Shown in pieces: positions 1,941 to 10,032 of a DNA stretch of 10,032 bases (positions are counted from its first letter, which is position 1; every line of letters begins with the position of its first letter). The notes beneath the pieces are model-generated. The model was not told the DNA's origin, ran no database searches, and worked only from the letters and a program-made list of their open reading frames with translations. The DNA is taken from the NCBI GenBank assembly GCA_025927935.1, contig JAICKM010000202.1, positions 1 through 10,032 of the forward strand, in the 5' to 3' direction. Both the position numbers and the translations under genes were made by a program. Source of the stretch: Chloroflexia bacterium. GTDB taxonomy: Bacteria; Chloroflexota; Chloroflexia; QHBQ01; JADMIH01.

Positions 1941-3107
1941 TCACGCGAGGCTTTCGTAGAGGCCCAGCATCTGGTTGGCGGCGGCGCTCCACGGGTAGAG
2001 CGCGGCGCGCTGGAGGCCGGCGGCGTGCAGGTTGCGGCGTACCTCCGCGCTTTCCAGTACCAGTTCCAGGGCCGCCGTGATCGCTTCCTCGGCCGTCGGG
2101 TCCACCAGCATGACCGCTTGCCCGCCGATCTCGGCCAGGGCCGGGGTGCGCGAGGCGATCACCGGGGTGCCGCAGGCCATCGCCTCCAGCACCGGCAAGC
2201 CGAAGCCCTCGTAGAGGCTGGGGTAGACAAACAGGGTCGCCATGTTATAAAGCAGCGTCAGGTCTTCTTCCGCCACATAATCGATGAAATGGATGCGCTG
2301 GGCCACGCCGCTGGCGGCCGCCGCTTGGAAGATCGAATCGTACATCCAGCCGCGCCGCCCGGCCAGCACCAGGTCGTGGCCCGCGTCGCGGTCGTGCTGG
2401 ACCAGGCGGGCATAGGCCAGGATAAGCCGGGTCAGGTTCTTGCGCGGCTCGATGGTGCCGACGTGGAGCAGGTAACGCGCGGGCAGGCCCATGCGGCGGC
2501 GGGCCGCCGGGGCCTCGGCTTGCAAGTCGCCGTAAGTGAAGGAGCGGAACTGCCCGTCCACGCCGTTGTGGACCGTTACCACCCGTTCCGGCGGGATCTG
2601 CAACCATTCGACCACGTCGCGGCGGGTCGTCTCGGAGACGGCGACCACGCGCGTGGCCTGGCGGGCGGCGCGGGGCACGTGGCGCTGCAAATAGGCGCGG
2701 TTGCCGGGGTCGGTGACTTCGGGCAGCACCAGGAAGCTGAGGTCGTGGATGGTGATCACGCTGCGCGCCCCGCGCACCGGCGGGGCGATGAAGTCGGGCG
2801 CGTGCAGCACATCGACCCCGCCGATCATGCGGTCGGCGGCGACGGGCATGCGCAGGCGGTTCCAGAGGATGCCGAGCATGCGCGCCGACATCGGCAATTC
2901 GTGCGCCCGCGCGTTCCGGTGGTGGGCCAGCAACTGGGTGAGAAAGGCGTACTCCGGCGTATCGCGCGGCAAGCCCGCGCCGCCGTAGAACAACGTGTAC
3001 TCGTGCGTGCGGTCCATCTGGAGCAGGGCGCGCACGAGCGAGCGCGTATAGCGGGCCACCCCCGCGCCGTGCCAGACTCCCGTGGTATAGTCGATGCCGA
3101 TCCGCAC
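1941..3107 (-). CDS. GT4-family glycosyltransferase
   Basis: A 388-residue GT-B fold glycosyltransferase of family GT4, which moves a sugar (often mannose) from a nucleotide-activated donor to a lipid-linked or growing glycan acceptor at the cytoplasmic membrane face. The N-terminal acceptor domain has the glycine-rich GAGVARY loop (14-20), IHDLSFL (120-126), the SETTRRD helix start (158-164) and HNGVD (180-184). The C-terminal donor domain begins at VGTIEPRKN (216-224) and carries the nucleotide-sugar signature PSLYEGFGLPVLEAMACGTP (296-315), whose EGFGLPVLE gives the E-x7-E pair. Length is normal and no membrane segment is seen. The start is a GTG (3105-3107), because it gives the canonical MRIGIDY beta strand and lies just after AGGAA, which overlaps the TAG stop of the upstream gene (9-nt spacing). 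It is the last gene of the polysaccharide cluster. Donor and acceptor cannot be told from sequence. Confidence 0.93.
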   Translation of the reverse strand: MRIGIDYTTGVWHGAGVARYTRSLVRALLQMDRTHEYTLFYGGAGLPRDTPEYAFLTQLLAHHRNARAHELPMSARMLGILWNRLRMPVAADRMIGGVDVLHAPDFIAPPVRGARSVITIHDLSFLVLPEVTDPGNRAYLQRHVPRAARQATRVVAVSETTRRDVVEWLQIPPERVVTVHNGVDGQFRSFTYGDLQAEAPAARRRMGLPARYLLHVGTIEPRKNLTRLILAYARLVQHDRDAGHDLVLAGRRGWMYDSIFQAAAASGVAQRIHFIDYVAEEDLTLLYNMATLFVYPSLYEGFGLPVLEAMACGTPVIASRTPALAEIGGQAVMLVDPTAEEAITAALELVLESAEVRRNLHAAGLQRAALYPWSAAANQMLGLYESLA

Positions 3108-3116
3108 AGGGCGTTC

Positions 3117-4346
3117 CTACTTGCGCCGTGACAGGAGGTAGACGATGAAGCCCCCGATCACGATGCTCCAGTAGTTGATCAGCCGGTCCAACAAGGCGAT
3201 GCTGATCGCGGTGTTATCGTCCACGCCGAACAGCTTGAGCACGCCGACAACCGCGCCCTCGACCAGGCCGATACCGCCGGGCGTGAAGGGCAGCGTGGTC
3301 AGCAGCGAACTCGCCAGCGCGATGAAGATGACCACCGGCAGGGTGATCAGGTGGCCCTGGTCGAGCGCCTGCACCACGCCGTAGAGCCGGGCGCCTTCCA
3401 GCAGCCAGATCACCGCGGTATAGCCGGCCAGCACGGGCAGGCTGCGCCGGCGGAAGCTGAGCAGGGTGCCGTGCTGGAAGCTGGTGAACATCGCCCGGAA
3501 GCGCTGCGGGATCAGGTGCAGCACCCGGTCGCCCAGGATGCGCAAGACCACCAGGCCCACGCCGAGGGCCACGATCATCGCCCCGCCCAGGGCCAGCACG
3601 CCGGTCATCATGCCCGGCATATGGCCCTGCAAGGTCAGGAAGCCCGATACCAGCAGCAACCCGAACAGGATGAACAGGTCGATCATGCGCTCGGCCAGGA
3701 TGGTGCCGATGGTGCGCGAGAACGAGACGCCCGCGCTCTGCTTGAGCAGGTAGCTGCGGTAGGCGTCGCCCAGCTTGGCCGGCACGATGCAGTTCACGAA
3801 CCAGCTCAGGTAGATGATCTCGATCAGGCCGCCGACCCCCGGCATCTCCGGTTTCTTGGCCCGCGAGAAGCCGACGTTGCTGAGCAGCGTCTGCCAGCGC
3901 AGCCCGCGCAACAGGAAGGCCGCATAGTAGACCACGAACCCGGCCAGGAACCAGGCCGGGTTGGCCTGCTTCATCGTCTGCCAGACTTCCGCCGGATCGA
4001 GGTTGAAGCGGGTGAAAATGAACAGGAAGAGCGCAATCGCCAGCCCGAACGACAGCAGCGTGCGCGGATCGCGCAGGCGGTGAACCAGCCATGCCCGATC
4101 TTCGGCCATTTCCTCGACTTTGCCGGCCATCGCCGGGGCTTCCTTCTCGGCAGCCACTACGTCTTCCGGCGTGGTGTGCAGCTCCGCGGCGACCTGCCGG
4201 GCGTGCGCGCCGTTGGCGGTGATACCGGGCGCCGCGCCCGCGACGGCGTCATCCGCCGCGGTCTCCGGCTCCAGGGCTACCGAGCGATCATGCAACGATG
4301 TGGGTTCTTTGATAGGACCGTCCTCCTGTCCAATGCTGCGTTCCAA
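3117..4346 (-). CDS. YbhN / LPG-synthase transmembrane-type membrane protein (flippase-like)
   Basis: An integral membrane protein of the lysylphosphatidylglycerol-synthase TM-region family (PF03706-like, YbhN/AglD-type), without the C-terminal aminoacyl-transfer domain of MprF. Members next to glycosyltransferases are often suspected of moving or handling lipid-linked glycans; the biochemical role is unproven. Hydrophobic segments begin at about residue 97 (LLSFGLAIALFLFIF). Family landmarks are RGLRW (147-151), VPAKLGDAYRSYLL (188-201), ERMIDLF (219-225) and LPFTPGGIGLVEG (352-364). The first ~90 residues are a hydrophilic Ala/Glu-rich extension, longer than usual. The start is uncertain. 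The TTG at 4346 has no good Shine-Dalgarno sequence, while a perfect AGGAGG (4322-4327) sits 8 nt before an in-frame ATC (4311-4313); the first in-frame ATG is at 4130. The 111 nt between this gene and the upstream ligase (4347-4457) show no clear terminator or promoter. The downstream GT4 gene follows after 9 nt. Confidence 0.88.
   Translation of the reverse strand: MERSIGQEDGPIKEPTSLHDRSVALEPETAADDAVAGAAPGITANGAHARQVAAELHTTPEDVVAAEKEAPAMAGKVEEMAEDRAWLVHRLRDPRTLLSFGLAIALFLFIFTRFNLDPAEVWQTMKQANPAWFLAGFVVYYAAFLLRGLRWQTLLSNVGFSRAKKPEMPGVGGLIEIIYLSWFVNCIVPAKLGDAYRSYLLKQSAGVSFSRTIGTILAERMIDLFILFGLLLVSGFLTLQGHMPGMMTGVLALGGAMIVALGVGLVVLRILGDRVLHLIPQRFRAMFTSFQHGTLLSFRRRSLPVLAGYTAVIWLLEGARLYGVVQALDQGHLITLPVVIFIALASSLLTTLPFTPGGIGLVEGAVVGVLKLFGVDDNTAISIALLDRLINYWSIVIGGFIVYLLSRRK
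4322..4327 (-). promoter_or_regulatory. Perfect Shine-Dalgarno that disputes the start of the flippase-like gene
   Basis: AGGAGG on the minus strand is followed by an 8-nt spacer and then ATC in the reading frame of the membrane protein. No ATG, GTG or TTG stands at normal spacing in that frame; the next in-frame TTG is about 18 nt further on. Either ATC is used as a rare start, or the motif is coincidental inside the coding region of a TTG-initiated gene. Confidence 0.4.
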
Positions 4347-4457: not shown

Positions 4458-5996
4458 TCACGCGCCACCGGCGCGGGCGGCGGCGCTTGCGCCGGGCAGA
4501 ACGATGCGCGGCGCCAGGTAAAAAAGCGCAATCACGGCGGCCCAATGGATGCCGAAATTGAGCACATGCAAGTTCTCGAACACGCTATGGCCCATGATGG
4601 TGCCGACGACGCCGATGGCCCCGATGAGCAGGGCCGTCTCAAAGCCGCGCCGGGCTGTCCACAGGCGGCCAATCGCGCGCGCGCCCGTCGCCAGCGTCAC
4701 GCCGAGCACGGCCAGGTAGGCCAGCAGCCCGGCCAGCCCGGTCTCGGCCAGGGCGTGCAGGTAGTAATTGTGGGCATGGCCCTTCGATACCGGCCAGCCC
4801 TGGATGGAGAAGCGCGGCCAGGCCACGTTGAAGTTGCCGATGCCGATGCCCAGCCAGGGGTCGGAGAGGAACATGTTGCCCGCGGTCTGCCAGTGGGCCA
4901 GGCGCTCGACCTGGCTGAAGTTCTCCGGCGTCGTCTCGACCTCGCGCACATCGTAGATCTGCAACTGGTTGGGGATGCTCTCCAGGCGGTCGCGCAGGCT
5001 GGCGGGCAGCACGCCGGTCACGGTCAGGCCCACCAGCAAGGCCGCGCCCAGGCCCAGCGCGAGCAGCGTCCGGCCCCGGTATGGCCCCATCGCCAGGGCC
5101 ATCGCCAGGATGCCGAAGACCAGGCCGATGTAACCCCCGCGCGACTGGCTGGCGATCAGCCCGCCCAGGATGACGGCGCTCAGCGCGGCCACGCCCACCG
5201 CCAGAGCGACGAGGGCCAGCCGCGCCCGCCGGTCGCGCTGGACGCCCGATCCGCGCGCCCGCAGCCCGCGCACCGCGCGGATGAGCAGGTAACAACTGAG
5301 GGCAATCGCCAGCGCGATGGTCAAGTTGAGGTAGCCCGCGTAGGAGTTGGGCATGCCGATGGTGCCGAAGGCGCGCGGCACCAGGTCTTCGGGATCGCCG
5401 CCCTGGCCGGCAAAGAAGGATGGCGGCACCTGCCGCGTCGCCACCTGCCAGATGCCCAGCAGGGCCTCGGCGGTCGCGCCCGCGAAGAAGCAGGCGACCA
5501 GCCCGATGATCTCGGCGCGCGTCCGAATCGTGTTGGCGATGATGATATAGGCCAGCAGCACCACGGTCCAGCGGGCCAGTTCGGCCAGGCCCGCGCTCAC
5601 CGACCCGGCCACAGCCAGGCTGGCGACCATGACCGTCATGTAGACGGCCAGCGCCACGGCGAACGGGGGGATCACCAACCGGCGCGCGGACACGGCCGTC
5701 CAGGCCCACCAGGCGCCCAGCAGCCCGACCATGGTGGCCTGGGTCAGTGTGGCCCGGCCTCCCAACGTGATTTCCTGCTGCACGGGGACACTCAAGACGA
5801 GCGCGTAGACTCCCCAGGCCGGGCGCTGCAAGACCAGCACGCCGCCCACGAGCAGGACGGCGAGGCCCAGGCCCACCTGCGGCGGCAGGAAGACGGCCAC
5901 GGCCACGGCGCCCGCCACCAGGATGGCATACCACCAGGGCATGCGGCGCCAATCGGCGGCGGCGCCCCGTGATATGGCGAGGACAGCGGCCCGCAT
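4458..5996 (-). CDS. O-antigen ligase family (Wzy_C) membrane protein
   Basis: A 512-residue polytopic membrane protein of the O-antigen ligase/polymerase superfamily (Wzy_C, PF04932-like). Such proteins transfer or polymerise undecaprenyl-linked glycans on the outer face of the membrane. Visible landmarks are roughly a dozen hydrophobic helices, SQSRGGYIG (about 283-291) at the end of a helix, and a large extracytoplasmic loop at about 325-415. That loop holds ERLAHWQTAGNMFLSDPWLG (364-383) and GHAHNYYLHALAETGLAG (406-423), the conserved His-bearing segment of this superfamily. The start chosen is the ATG at 5996: AAGGGAG lies directly upstream and merges with the TAA stop of the UDP-xylose synthase gene, 7 nt away. 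The longer open frame back to 6101 would overlap that gene by ~100 nt and encodes an Arg-rich, unrelated-looking stretch. Whether it is a ligase or polymerase, and for which glycan, is not decided by sequence. Confidence 0.92.
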   Translation of the reverse strand: MRAAVLAISRGAAADWRRMPWWYAILVAGAVAVAVFLPPQVGLGLAVLLVGGVLVLQRPAWGVYALVLSVPVQQEITLGGRATLTQATMVGLLGAWWAWTAVSARRLVIPPFAVALAVYMTVMVASLAVAGSVSAGLAELARWTVVLLAYIIIANTIRTRAEIIGLVACFFAGATAEALLGIWQVATRQVPPSFFAGQGGDPEDLVPRAFGTIGMPNSYAGYLNLTIALAIALSCYLLIRAVRGLRARGSGVQRDRRARLALVALAVGVAALSAVILGGLIASQSRGGYIGLVFGILAMALAMGPYRGRTLLALGLGAALLVGLTVTGVLPASLRDRLESIPNQLQIYDVREVETTPENFSQVERLAHWQTAGNMFLSDPWLGIGIGNFNVAWPRFSIQGWPVSKGHAHNYYLHALAETGLAGLLAYLAVLGVTLATGARAIGRLWTARRGFETALLIGAIGVVGTIMGHSVFENLHVLNFGIHWAAVIALFYLAPRIVLPGASAAARAGGA

Positions 5997-6003
5997 CGCT
6001 CCC

Positions 6004-7002
6004 TTAGCCGCCCAGTGAGGTGCCGCCCACCGGCTGCGGCGCCGTCGCGTCGCTGGGCGTGACCACCGTGCGGAACCAGGCCAGGGTGCGTTCCAGCCCA
6101 TCAGCCAGGCTCACCCGCGGCTCCCACCCGATCTCGGTGCGGATGCGCGTGATGTCGGGGCAGCGGCGGCTGGGGTCTTCGGTCAGCGCGGGCCGATGCT
6201 CGATGGGCACCTGCGCGCCGGCCAGGTCGCGGATAATCCGGGCGAAGTCGATGATGTAGCGCTCATCGGGGTTGCCGACGTTGTAGACCCGCCCGCAGGC
6301 CACTTCGCACGGGGCGTCCATCACGGCGCGCAGCGCGCGCACCATATCCTCGACATAGCAGAAGGCGCGGGTTTGCTTGCCGTCGCCGTAGACGGTCAGC
6401 GGGCGACCGGTGAGCGCCTGGGAGATGAAATTGGGCACTACGCGCCCATCCTTGGGGTTCATGTGCGGGCCGTAGGTGTTGAAGATGCGCACCAGCCGCC
6501 CGTCAATGCCCTTCTCGCGCACATAGGTCGTGACCAGCGTTTCGCCCAGGCGCTTGCTCTCGTCGTAGCAGGCGCGCGGCCCCACTGGGTTGACGTTGCC
6601 GAAGTAGGTCTCGACCTGCGGGTGGACCAGCGGATCGCCATAGGCTTCGGACGTGGAGGTGAAGAGGATACGCGCGTCATGCTCCGTGGCCCATTCGAGC
6701 AGGTTCTGCGTGCCGTAGGTATTGGTCGCCAGGATCGCCAGCGGGATGCGGCTGAAATCGGCGGGACTGGCCGGGCTTGCCAGGTGATAGACCTGATCGG
6801 CGTCCGGCAGATCGGGCGGCAGGGGCCGGCTGATGTCGTGCTCGATCACACGCAGCCGGGGATTATCACGCAGCGCGGCGATATTGCGCGGGTTGCCGGT
6901 GAGGTAGTTGTCGAGAATGAGAACGTCATGACCGTCCGCGAGCAAGGCGGCGGTGAGGTGCGAGCCGATAAAACCGGCCCCACCGGCGACAATAATGCGC
7001 AA
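6004..7002 (-). CDS. UDP-glucuronate decarboxylase (UDP-xylose synthase), extended SDR family
   Basis: A 332-residue NAD-dependent extended short-chain dehydrogenase. UXS enzymes oxidise UDP-glucuronate at C4, decarboxylate it and re-reduce it to UDP-xylose in the cytoplasm. The Rossmann motif GGAGFIGSH (7-15) follows the first beta strand, with LDN (30-32) at the end of beta-2. Then come HLASPASP (73-80), TSTSEAYGDP (115-124), and the diagnostic UXS stretch GNVNPVGPRACYDESKRLGE (135-154), holding the catalytic YxxxK (Y146, K150). RIFNTYGP (172-179) and YGDGKQTRAFCYVEDM (205-220) complete the family pattern. Length is close to normal, with a short low-complexity tail. The start is a TTG (7000-7002), supported by AGGAGG 5 nt upstream and the intact Rossmann N-terminus. 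That Shine-Dalgarno sequence overlaps the TAG stop of the upstream fusion gene. Its product probably supplies xylose for the glycan made by neighbouring genes. A related UDP-hexose decarboxylase/epimerase activity is less likely. Confidence 0.9.
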   Translation of the reverse strand: MRIIVAGGAGFIGSHLTAALLADGHDVLILDNYLTGNPRNIAALRDNPRLRVIEHDISRPLPPDLPDADQVYHLASPASPADFSRIPLAILATNTYGTQNLLEWATEHDARILFTSTSEAYGDPLVHPQVETYFGNVNPVGPRACYDESKRLGETLVTTYVREKGIDGRLVRIFNTYGPHMNPKDGRVVPNFISQALTGRPLTVYGDGKQTRAFCYVEDMVRALRAVMDAPCEVACGRVYNVGNPDERYIIDFARIIRDLAGAQVPIEHRPALTEDPSRRCPDITRIRTEIGWEPRVSLADGLERTLAWFRTVVTPSDATAPQPVGGTSLGG

Positions 7003-7011
7003 AGGATCCTC

Positions 7012-10000
7012 CTACTGGTTGCCGGTTGCGGGGGCGAACGGCGGGCCGTGGGCCGGCTTCCACATCATCTGCAACAGGGCACAGAAGAGCCAGAAAGTGA
7101 GCGCCAGATCCGGCAGAAAATATGAGTTGTCGACGAGGCCATGCACGACCACGACGGTCATCCCGGCCAGCACCGCGCGGGCCAGCGCGGCGCCCCGCGC
7201 GTCAGTGCGGCGGATAAGGGCCAGCGCGCCCAGGATCACACGTACCATGATCCAGCCCGCGACAAGCACACCTATTATACCCAAACTGAGCCAGCAATCC
7301 AAGAGCAGGTTATGCGGGTGCGACAGCCAGCGCTCTTGCTGGTGGGCCGGATCGGCGTAGGGGCCTTGATACTGGTTGAGGAACTGGTCGAGGCCGATGC
7401 CGAAGACCGGGTGATCGCGCAGCATGGCGAGCGCCGTCTGCCAGAGGTCGAGGCGGATGAGGCCGCTGCCGGTGTGCAGGATACGCTCCGGCAGGCGGCC
7501 CAGCGCGGCCAGCGCCAGCAGCCCCGCCCCCCCGGCCACCAGCGCGCCGGTGAACACCCGCGCGGCCCGCCCGCCCACCATCCAGAGGCTGACCCCGACG
7601 GCGACCACGACGGCCAGCCAGGCCCCGCGCGAATACGAGAGCACCAGGGCCGGGATCATCACCAGCGTCGCCAGGATGTAGGCGCGGCGGCGCAAGGTTT
7701 CGCCCGGCTCGGTGAGGAACCAGGCCAGGGCCGCGGTGAAGGCCAGGGCGCGGCCCAGGAACAGCCCCAGGTTGTCGGGGTGGGTGAACAGGCCCTGGAA
7801 GCGGACGACGCCCTGCACGTCGAGCGTGTGGCCGGGGACGTTGAGGAAGCCGAGGGCCAGGGCCAGCGCCGCGGCCAGCGCCGACCCGCCGATGAAGCCG
7901 TCGGCCACGCGCAGGGTCTGGCGGCGGCCGGCGCGGATATCCGTCGCCAGGAAGTAGAACAGCACCGGCTCGACGATCACCCAGCGGTAGGCGCGCAGGC
8001 TATCGCGCAGGTACTCCGGGTTCGCCACGGTGAGCAGCGAGAAGGTGCCCACGATCAGCAGCGCCCCGGCGGGCACGCCGAAGAGATCGCGGCGCAGGGC
8101 GGTGCGCAGCCGTTCGCGCCAGGGCACCGGGCCTTGCAACTCCTGGTACAGATTGAGGTAACCGGTGACGGTCAAGTCGGCGGGCGCGGCCACGGCAGCG
8201 GCGGCCCGGCGGCGGGTTTGCTCGCGCCAGGCGCGGTGGATGATCCAGGCGATCAGCGTGAGCCAGAGGCAGGTTTCGCTGATCGGGAAGCTCCAATCGA
8301 GCAGGGCGCGCGGCGCCGTGGCGAACGGGATGGCGGCGGCCGTCGTGACCACGGCCATATCGGGGCGCAGCACGGCCAGCAGGAACCAGACGATAAGCGG
8401 CAGCAGCGCCCAGCGTGGCGACGGCAGCAGGTAATAGGTGACCAGGGCCGTGGTCATCGCGGCGACGACGACCCCGGCGCGCGCCCCGTCGCCGGTCAGC
8501 CCCGGCAGGGCCACGGCCTGGCGCACCAGTCGCGGCAGAGCGACGATGGCGAACGTGCTGCGCACGCCGAGCCAGAGCGCCAGCCCGGTCAGCAAGAGAT
8601 ACCCGGCGGCGAACAGCCCGGCCTGCGGCGACTCGCGCCCGACCACGAAGCCAAGCAGCGCGACCGGCGCGTCCACATTGGCCGGGCGGATAGTTACAGT
8701 GTGGCGCGTGTCCTTCAGGTCGCCGGCCACCCGGAGGCGCACGGCGCTCAGGCCGGGCGGCGCGGGCCAGGCCGGATCGGGCGTCACGCGGTTAGCGGTC
8801 GTCCCGGCGGCGGGGATGGTGGCGAGGGCGCGGCCTGTGCTGTCCACCGGCCAGCCGGGCGGCGGCGCGCCGTCCAGTTCGACCTGCAAGGGCGCCGGGT
8901 GGGCGCCGGGCGCGAACACCAGGTCCAGGATGTTGCCCTCGAAGGTCAGGGTGGCCGTGCTGTTGGGTGTGGTCGCCGTATAAACCGGACGGTCCGCCGG
9001 GGCGGCCCTGGTCCAGGGCCCGGCGACGGTCAGGGCCGGGTTGTCGGGCAGGCCCGCGCCGGTCTCGGCCAGCGGGAAGCGCTTGCTGTAGCGGGCGATG
9101 GCCCCGTAGGCCGGGCGCTGGGTCCAGTCCTGGTTGAGGATGGCGAAATACGCCTGGGGTTCGTGCGGCAGCGGCGCGGGGTCGCGCAAGAACCAGACAA
9201 ACATCGCGCCCATCCACGGCCATTCGGCGCGCGCCCGGTCATAGCCGCTGACCAGGTAGTTGGCCTGCTGCTCCGGTGTCACGCTACCCCAGATGCCCGG
9301 TTTGTTTGCCGGGTCGGCGCGCCAATCCGGCGGCAGGCTGACCCAGCCGTATTCGCTGGCCCAGATGCCCTTGGCGCCGTCGCCGTTGCGGACCATCACG
9401 TCGCGGGCCAGCACCGGGCGCGAGAAGTTGATGCGGTCGAGATCCGTGCGCCGGTCGGCGGGGGAATAATTCAGGCCGTAGTCCATGACGTTGGCGATAT
9501 CGAAGTAGGGCTGCGCGCCCGCGTCGTACATGGCCTGCAAGTAGAGGATGTCGTTGGGGTTGCACTGGTCGCCGGTGTGCGTCTGGGCCAGCGGCGCCAT
9601 GAGGATCACGGCGTCGGGGTTGGCGGCGTGGGCGGCTTCATAGGCCGCTTTCAACAGGGCGGTATAGGCGGCAGGGTTGGGCTGCGGCGGCCACTCGCCG
9701 ATCAGGTTCGGCTCGTTCCAAATCTGAAAGTAGCGCACCTTGCCCTTGTAGCGTGAGACGACTTCTCTCACGAAGTCGGCATAATCGTCCACGTTGGCCG
9801 GCGGCGCGTGCGAATAATCAACCTGGTCGCCACCGCAGGGATTGTTCGGGTTGGGCGCGCTGCGTGCCCAGGCCGGGGTGGCGTCGAGGCGGGCCACGAT
9901 CTCCAGGTTGAAGGCGCGCGCCTGGTCCACGATAAAGTCGTACTTGTCCCAGGCGGAGTGGGCCGGGCCGGGGCCGCGCCGGTCCACGTAGTCGCCCTTG

Positions 10001-10032
10001 CCCGCGATCTCGATGTCGCTCCAGACGAAGCC
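7012..10032 (-). CDS. Glycoside hydrolase (clan GH-A-like) / O-antigen ligase (Wzy_C) fusion, 5' end cut by window
   Basis: One uninterrupted frame of 1006 residues runs from the window edge to a TAG at 7012; the true start is outside. Numbering from the first visible residue, 1-325 resemble a GH39/GH5-type TIM-barrel glycosidase. WNEPNL (105-110) gives the putative acid/base Glu107, and WASEYGW (224-230) the putative nucleophile Glu227. Also seen are EIVARLDATPAW (44-55) and FVWFLRDP (278-285). Residues ~345-455 are a beta-rich domain (ATLTFEGNILDLVF). From ~470 on the protein is strongly hydrophobic with many membrane segments. It carries Wzy_C features: FTHPDNLGLFLGRA (749-762), SYSRGAW (799-805), LRDHPVFGIGLDQF (871-884) and SHPHNLLLDCWLSLGIIG (904-921). 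A hydrophilic loop lies at about 600-650. The glycosidase domain is presumably exported and faces the same side as the ligase catalytic loop. The UXS gene starts 9 nt downstream. Substrates are unknown. Confidence 0.88.
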   Translation of the reverse strand, partial: GFVWSDIEIAGKGDYVDRRGPGPAHSAWDKYDFIVDQARAFNLEIVARLDATPAWARSAPNPNNPCGGDQVDYSHAPPANVDDYADFVREVVSRYKGKVRYFQIWNEPNLIGEWPPQPNPAAYTALLKAAYEAAHAANPDAVILMAPLAQTHTGDQCNPNDILYLQAMYDAGAQPYFDIANVMDYGLNYSPADRRTDLDRINFSRPVLARDVMVRNGDGAKGIWASEYGWVSLPPDWRADPANKPGIWGSVTPEQQANYLVSGYDRARAEWPWMGAMFVWFLRDPAPLPHEPQAYFAILNQDWTQRPAYGAIARYSKRFPLAETGAGLPDNPALTVAGPWTRAAPADRPVYTATTPNSTATLTFEGNILDLVFAPGAHPAPLQVELDGAPPPGWPVDSTGRALATIPAAGTTANRVTPDPAWPAPPGLSAVRLRVAGDLKDTRHTVTIRPANVDAPVALLGFVVGRESPQAGLFAAGYLLLTGLALWLGVRSTFAIVALPRLVRQAVALPGLTGDGARAGVVVAAMTTALVTYYLLPSPRWALLPLIVWFLLAVLRPDMAVVTTAAAIPFATAPRALLDWSFPISETCLWLTLIAWIIHRAWREQTRRRAAAAVAAPADLTVTGYLNLYQELQGPVPWRERLRTALRRDLFGVPAGALLIVGTFSLLTVANPEYLRDSLRAYRWVIVEPVLFYFLATDIRAGRRQTLRVADGFIGGSALAAALALALGFLNVPGHTLDVQGVVRFQGLFTHPDNLGLFLGRALAFTAALAWFLTEPGETLRRRAYILATLVMIPALVLSYSRGAWLAVVVAVGVSLWMVGGRAARVFTGALVAGGAGLLALAALGRLPERILHTGSGLIRLDLWQTALAMLRDHPVFGIGLDQFLNQYQGPYADPAHQQERWLSHPHNLLLDCWLSLGIIGVLVAGWIMVRVILGALALIRRTDARGAALARAVLAGMTVVVVHGLVDNSYFLPDLALTFWLFCALLQMMWKPAHGPPFAPATGNQ

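Follow-up and report, generated by a model that had tools for sequence, protein, structure and literature searches.

A 10,032-nucleotide stretch of DNA from a Chloroflexia bacterium (contig JAICKM010000202.1, assembly GCA_025927935.1; the whole stretch is hereafter the window) carries a gene that joins a PslG-like glycosidase barrel, a beta-sandwich domain, and a complete Wzy_C membrane domain in one reading frame. This glycosidase/Wzy_C fusion is real and no assembly accident, because 85 of 115 protein matches are of fusion size and at least 62 of 301 sampled Chloroflexota genomes match over most of the fused length. Each half is known. The less expected part of the finding is that the fusions split into two classes, one with intact and one with degenerate catalytic residues; the window's protein, going by its residues, is of the intact type. 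With slightly better than even confidence, we favor a reading in which a PslG-like endoglycosidase, tethered to a polymerase/ligase, would cut the glycan that its partner handles, so that cutting would be coupled to assembly.

Domain layout and distribution of the fusion

The fusion gene occupies positions 7012 to 10032 of the reverse strand as one uninterrupted frame of 1006 residues, open at the window edge, beyond which the protein begins; its full length is 1091 residues, of which the window encodes the final 1006. P0001, the complete protein (its numbering is used throughout), is identical to the window frame at 1003 of 1006 aligned residues and has one additional internal residue. P0001 supplies the missing start, including a membrane helix (residues 9 to 27 by hydropathy, 2 to 32 in the model), and runs from this membrane anchor through a PslG/GH39-type TIM barrel, a CBM35/CE2-like beta-sandwich, and three linker helices to a complete WaaL-fold Wzy_C domain. 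An AlphaFold model of the whole protein reached a predicted local distance difference test of 92.4 and a predicted template modeling score of 0.74, with high confidence across the junction between the glycosidase and membrane parts. At positions 8620 to 8700 of the window, where the first-pass annotation had considered a frameshift or assembly join, there was no stop and no change of frame, and independent genomes carry the fusion. An 871-residue open frame on the forward strand (positions 7141 to 9756) overlaps the fusion in antisense and is probably a shadow frame of GC-rich DNA.

The TIM-barrel glycosidase domain spans positions 9085 to 10032 of the reverse strand (P0001 85 to 400), with a domain start near residue 45, outside the window. 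As had been anticipated, the model forms a barrel at the N-terminus, with strands and helices in alternation, and its nearest structures were PslG/GH39. The front part of the protein matched PslG by sequence (E 2.8e-8), and the family profile matched PslG (E 4.7e-27), the WaaL structure 7tpg (E 1.5e-16), and GH39 xylosidases (E 4.3e-13). A Pfam search with the window's protein returned no glycoside hydrolase model at E up to 1; in the barrel region, a hint of a GDSL lipase (E 0.063) fell below the cut-off and was rejected. The two catalytic glutamates named in the first-pass annotation, in WNEP and SEYGW contexts, are borne out by alignment: the acid/base E191 (WNEPN, positions 9712 to 9714, reverse strand) aligned with PslG E165 and the nucleophile E311 (SEYGW, positions 9352 to 9354, reverse strand) with PslG E276. 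E165 and E276 are the catalytic glutamates of PslG, with roles as described in passages of PMC11912335. The acid/base glutamate lies after strand 4 and the nucleophile on strand 7 (model strands 185 to 188 and 307 to 312). Glutamate was found at the first position in 80 and at the second in 57 of 85 aligned fusions.

Behind the barrel, the beta-sandwich domain (positions 8635 to 9072, reverse strand; P0001 405 to 550) has the fold of the CE2 and CBM35 beta-sandwich domains, with a weak sequence match to 2wab (E 0.3 with alignment A2, 0.001 with alignment A1). The modeled fold resembles carbohydrate-binding modules, which agrees with the earlier suggestion of a glycan-binding segment; the domain may hold the glycan chain. 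In 11 of 70 fusions (L017, L080, L084 to L089, L091, L094, L095), the beta-domain model found no match between barrel and Wzy_C, and the domain may therefore be missing or too different there.

Three linker membrane-crossing helices, seen in the model, connect the outside domains to the ligase core (positions 8368 to 8622, reverse strand; P0001 555 to 639). The Wzy_C/WaaL-fold membrane core follows at positions 7048 to 8364 of the same strand and scored 82.9 bits against Pfam Wzy_C (PF04932; cut-off 31.7). The whole-model structure search was filled by a single domain (residues 48 to 419), and a second model was therefore made; this model and A2 cover the window's protein and 56 of the 70 fusions from the loci. 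The WaaL alignment begins at model residue 236, about residue 636 of P0001. R945 (positions 7453 to 7455, reverse strand) aligned with the Arg of RLKIW in WaaL 7tpg, and the external-loop HPH motif (H990 and H992, positions 7312 to 7320, reverse strand), the conserved His loop of the first-pass annotation, aligned with HAH of HAHN. R846, R945, G963, and G965 were invariant in all 85 rows of A1; H992 was His in 83 and H990 in 80 of them, and both were invariant in the 57 rows of A2. The protein thus has the WaaL membrane fold with the conserved Arg and an external His loop. The N-terminus of WaaL is cytoplasmic. Helix parity, with residues 641 to 656 taken as a crossing, and the alignment to WaaL predict that the glycosidase and the ligase His loop lie on the same side of the membrane, as the first-pass annotation had supposed. 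Compared to WaaL of Cupriavidus metallidurans (PDB 7tpg/7tpj), the fusion has three additional helices, and large outside domains precede the core. None of the NCBIfam equivalog models reached its cut-off with the fusion: the RfaL O-antigen ligase model NF012031 scored 22 bits against 277, and the TfpM model for PglL/TfpM O-oligosaccharyltransferases scored 18 against 600. A bicarbonate transporter assignment (IctB/2A73, TIGR00947) was rejected at 55.4 bits against 366.4.

The first-pass annotation did not count this as a standard architecture; the layout in fact recurs across Chloroflexota, and its relatives are not always two separate genes. The 85 fusion-sized homologues (890 to 1250 residues) align over the fused length and make up A1, which leaves out 28 homologues shorter than 700 residues together with P0112 and P0115; one of the 28, P0113, carries Wzy_C instead of the barrel. 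When a collection in which each species has a single genome was scanned, 24 genomes yielded 25 loci (L018 and L015 share a contig), and in 13 of the 24 the fusion is in one frame. By label, 22 of the 24 genomes are Chloroflexota or belong to a group that we take to fall there, one is a "bacterium," and one is from the PVC group. Genome-by-genome scans covered the Chloroflexota set and the phylum of this PVC-labeled metagenome-assembled genome (MAG). In the latter, 1 of 145 genomes matched, namely the MAG itself, on a 4-kb contig, and misbinning is therefore likely. Among the 301 sampled genomes of Chloroflexota, the phylum of the Anaerolineae MAG G003, at least 124 matched at E 1e-100 and at least 62 had a single match spanning most of the 1058 model positions, both counts being lower bounds since the best two candidates per genome were scored. 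At least 60 remain when G258, which lacks the first 135 model positions, and G043, a split form with a stop between two genes, are removed. The loci hold 70 single-frame fusions, several on multi-megabase contigs; 11 loci (L018 and L026 to L035, duplicates or short cuts) are left out of the locus counts, and L096 to L100 enter none. The protein and locus sets overlap in part (for example, P0043 and L037).

A few relatives are divided: L092 and L093 have glycosidase, beta domain, and Wzy_C in adjacent genes, L036 has glycosidase and Wzy_C, and L021 looks like a frame break. In trees built from the locus set and 14 of the 85 fusion-sized proteins (quick search, midpoint root, barrel frames of 300 residues or fewer excluded), the Wzy_C proteins of L092, L093, and L036 nest with fused ones, and their barrels group with the stand-alone glycosidases upstream of fusions. 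We therefore read these split forms as probable fusions that lost their own barrel, and the opposite direction is also possible. Stand-alone Chloroflexota GH39-like proteins have the same barrel, some with the beta domain, and no Wzy_C; those upstream of fusions group apart from fused barrels. Among 72,556 plasmid records searched for PslG-like barrels, 11 matched, and in none did coverage reach 80 percent; of the four whose neighborhoods were covered, one had an adjoining Wzy_C-type gene. On the Deinococcus aetherius plasmid pDAETH-4 (L099, 8659 to 13189), a 1048-residue glycosyl hydrolase matching the window's barrel (28 percent, E 1e-6) is directly followed by an "O-antigen ligase family protein" in a phage-like module with a tape measure protein nearby; here a glycosidase sits beside a Wzy_C-type protein on a mobile element.

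Intact and degenerate barrels

In A1, the signature N190-E191-E311, which the window's protein keeps, was present in 54 rows and lost in 30; one row, P0111, has no residues at these columns, leaving 84 scorable fusion proteins. All 30 degenerate proteins have Asp or His at position 190, so that the Asn before the acid/base is lost, and at position 311 they have His (11), Asn (8), Glu (3), Gln (3), Ala (3), Pro (1), or Arg (1). The nucleophile is thus also lost in 27 of the 84. Among loci, 45 of 70 fusions were intact and 25 degenerate, with 19 of those 25 also lacking Glu 311. Unfused barrels showed the intact signature in 37 of 42 frames, and the other five were of HE/A type or cut fragments ending in Ala. 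At L042, L043, L045, L049, and L050, a second, stand-alone barrel that is degenerate (HE/A or Ala-type) lies near an intact fusion, the reverse of the usual pairing; four of these five barrels are cut by the locus end.

Column entropy was used to compare conservation between the classes in A1. In intact fusions, the means were 1.34 bits for the barrel, 2.76 for the beta domain, and 1.77 for Wzy_C; in degenerate fusions, they were 1.61, 1.69, and 1.77 bits, respectively. The barrel is therefore most strictly kept where its catalytic residues are intact. Moreover, 31 barrel positions were at least 90 percent identical in both classes. Since the degenerate barrel stays conserved, it appears to be kept for something other than the classical double-displacement reaction. 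Degenerate barrels, about a third of the relatives, probably only read or hold the chain. The class changes twice on the barrel tree, which included all barrels and was built without columns 190 and 311, and twice on the Wzy_C tree of the fusions. The order of these changes is unsure because the midpoint-rooted trees have several long branches and open deep forks.

Gene neighborhood and envelope of the hosts

The window's genes run on one strand in the order fusion, uridine diphosphate (UDP)-glucuronate decarboxylase, second Wzy_C protein, flippase-like protein, and GT4 glycosyltransferase. Directly downstream of the fusion, positions 6004 to 7002 (reverse strand, as for all that follow) encode a short-chain dehydrogenase/reductase of UDP-glucuronate decarboxylase (UDP-xylose synthase) type (PDB 4gll, E 8.7e-99). 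A relative of it directly follows the fusion in 10 of 70 loci, two of which (L069 and L071) have a called frame that runs back into the fusion gene. Across the 70 fusion loci, neighbor counts are lower bounds, some contigs ending early. The second Wzy_C protein (4458 to 6101; Pfam 75.9 bits), found downstream in 13 of 70 loci, belongs to a clade of its own, apart from the fused ones; hence, one Wzy_C could polymerize and the other transfer. Next come an LPG_synthase_TM/flippase-like membrane protein (3117 to 4346; 170.5 bits; 7 of 70 loci) and the GT4 glycosyltransferase (1941 to 3107; 111.5 bits; 10 of 70 loci). This gene neighborhood is compatible with a Wzy-type polymerase that would lengthen lipid-linked repeats. 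Downstream of these glycan genes are what we take to be a PhoU/DUF47 protein (941 to 1573) and a PitA-type phosphate transporter (1 to 948).

On the upstream side, a stand-alone glycosidase directly adjoins the fusion in 24 of 70 loci, 21 with an intact and 3 with a degenerate fusion, and in all three of the latter the neighboring glycosidase is intact. A G5/DUF348-domain protein lies directly upstream in 7 of 25 degenerate loci versus 0 of 45 intact ones (L002, L004, L007, L016, L025, L038, and L044; assigned by Pfam for L002 and L007 and by similarity to L007 for the others). This protein is a possible acceptor or wall partner.

Of the 62 long-match genomes, 54 (including that of the split form G043) were searched for LpxC and 38 for LCP transferases and Wzz. 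LpxC was not found in 53 of the 54, which are relatives of the window's genome and whose completeness is not stated; the control was positive in 4 of 14 known genomes. The single match (G203, E 8e-98) is possibly MAG contamination. LCP transferases were found in 37 of 38 genomes (control, 7 of 14) and Wzz in 30 of 38 (control, 8 of 14). The eight genomes without Wzz all have intact fusions (L042, L043, L045, and L049 to L053); because several are close kin, we draw nothing from this. The LpxC result agrees with a report on Chloroflexales, according to which lipopolysaccharide and its key genes have not been found there, although an outer-membrane-like layer is described in two of three strains studied (PMC7332563). 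Thus, a name that implies an "O-antigen ligase" acting on lipid A is probably mistaken, and lipid A is an unlikely acceptor. The O-antigen-ligase type proposed in the first-pass annotation therefore stands for the WaaL fold and the Wzy_C domain and fails in its lipid A sense, for which the RfaL score was also far too low.

Possible roles of the fusion

Under the favored reading, the Wzy_C/WaaL-fold domain would take a lipid-linked glycan, presumably on undecaprenyl-pyrophosphate, on the outer side of the cytoplasmic membrane, and would either polymerize it or hand it to some acceptor that is not lipid A. The PslG-like barrel, kept beside the Wzy_C core by the membrane anchor at one end and the three linker helices at the other, would cut the same glycan internally and so end, trim, or release chains, while the beta-sandwich would hold the chain. 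The fusion would then be, in effect, PslG covalently joined to a polymerase/ligase partner. PslG of Pseudomonas aeruginosa (GH39; PDB 4zn2/5bx9/9g17) is a separate protein without Wzy_C, whereas here the barrel is fused to Wzy_C through a CBM-like domain and three helices. Our literature search turned up no Wzy or PglL with an N-terminal glycosidase, and the fusion was not described in the titles and abstracts searched, a search outside which most subscription papers fall; in databases it appears as "O-antigen ligase family protein" or "polysaccharide biosynthesis protein PslG."

Several observations weigh against this reading. The Asn-Glu/Glu signature is lost in 30 of 84 proteins and 25 of 70 loci, and the fusion can thus persist without cutting. 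Gene content also varies: downstream of the fusion, no second Wzy_C was seen in 57 of 70 loci and no decarboxylase in 60 of 70, some contigs ending early. PslJ, which we take to be a Wzy_C protein, was not found described as such in print. Its function is called not clear in PMC10569066. A two-hybrid study gave PslE as the partner of PslG, and PslJ is absent from the main text of that paper. The first-pass annotation had imagined one machine that trims, measures, or transfers chains; cutting as its universal purpose did not hold, the nucleophile being missing in 27 of 84 proteins and 19 of 70 loci, and the rest of that idea we still infer.

One tentative elaboration, to which we give less than even odds, is that Chloroflexota have a polymerase/ligase that carries a head of its own for ending or measuring chains. 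Intact proteins would cut the growing chain at a fixed distance from the membrane, and the protein itself would thereby determine product length; the degenerate class would be a non-cutting reader. If so, the glycosidase in exopolysaccharide loci would be a working part of the polymerase/ligase and not a degrader.

The barrel could instead serve chiefly as a reading head that binds glycan as a ruler or senses chain ends for Wzy_C, with cutting secondary or lost. The whole degenerate class speaks for this, including the 27 proteins that also lack the nucleophile: its barrel is about as conserved as Wzy_C, its beta domain is better conserved than that of the intact class, it shares the 31 near-identical positions, and its adjoining glycosidases are intact in three of three loci. 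We nonetheless consider it unlikely, because the window's protein and 54 of 84 fusions keep the Asn, the acid/base, and the nucleophile, the intact-class barrel is the best conserved part of the protein, which pure binding would not require, and Wzz-type length regulators in 30 of 38 genomes mean that another ruler often exists. Less likely again is a Wzy_C domain that acts as an O-linked protein glycosyltransferase, or transfers to some other acceptor, with a barrel that trims or otherwise edits the glycan once it is attached. The O-linking oligosaccharyltransferase PglS is among the enzymes with the WaaL fold (PMC12800693), and both the general lack of LpxC matches and the G5/DUF348 protein upstream in 7 of 70 loci would suit such a role; however, these seven loci are all degenerate, the window's own intact class has none in 45, the window locus has no acceptor protein linked to it, and the TfpM score is far below its cut-off.

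That two unrelated activities merely share a gene, for example a nutrient-scavenging glycosidase anchored to a membrane protein, we regard as highly improbable. The barrel family does occur without Wzy_C, in the homologues below 700 residues (P0113 excepted) and in the 42 unfused frames, but the fused layout is conserved across wide trees on each of which the class changes only twice, and its neighbors are glycan-assembly genes. An assembly join or frameshift is refuted by the independent genomes: although four relatives (L021, L036, L092, and L093) are split or frame-broken, they stand against 70 single-frame fusions, several on multi-megabase contigs, and a model that is confident across the junction.

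Why a polysaccharide gene cluster should need its glycosidase gene is called "elusive" in a 2022 paper (PMC9075953). A natural fusion of a PslG-type glycosidase with Wzy_C points to a direct partner of the glycosidase, and the natural series of intact, nucleophile-less, and split forms makes cutting versus binding testable. The finding also suggests a different function for proteins labeled "O-antigen ligase" where the bacterium has no lipid A pathway. Finally, the same layout in many Chloroflexota is a hint that chains may be cut and joined in a single coupled step.

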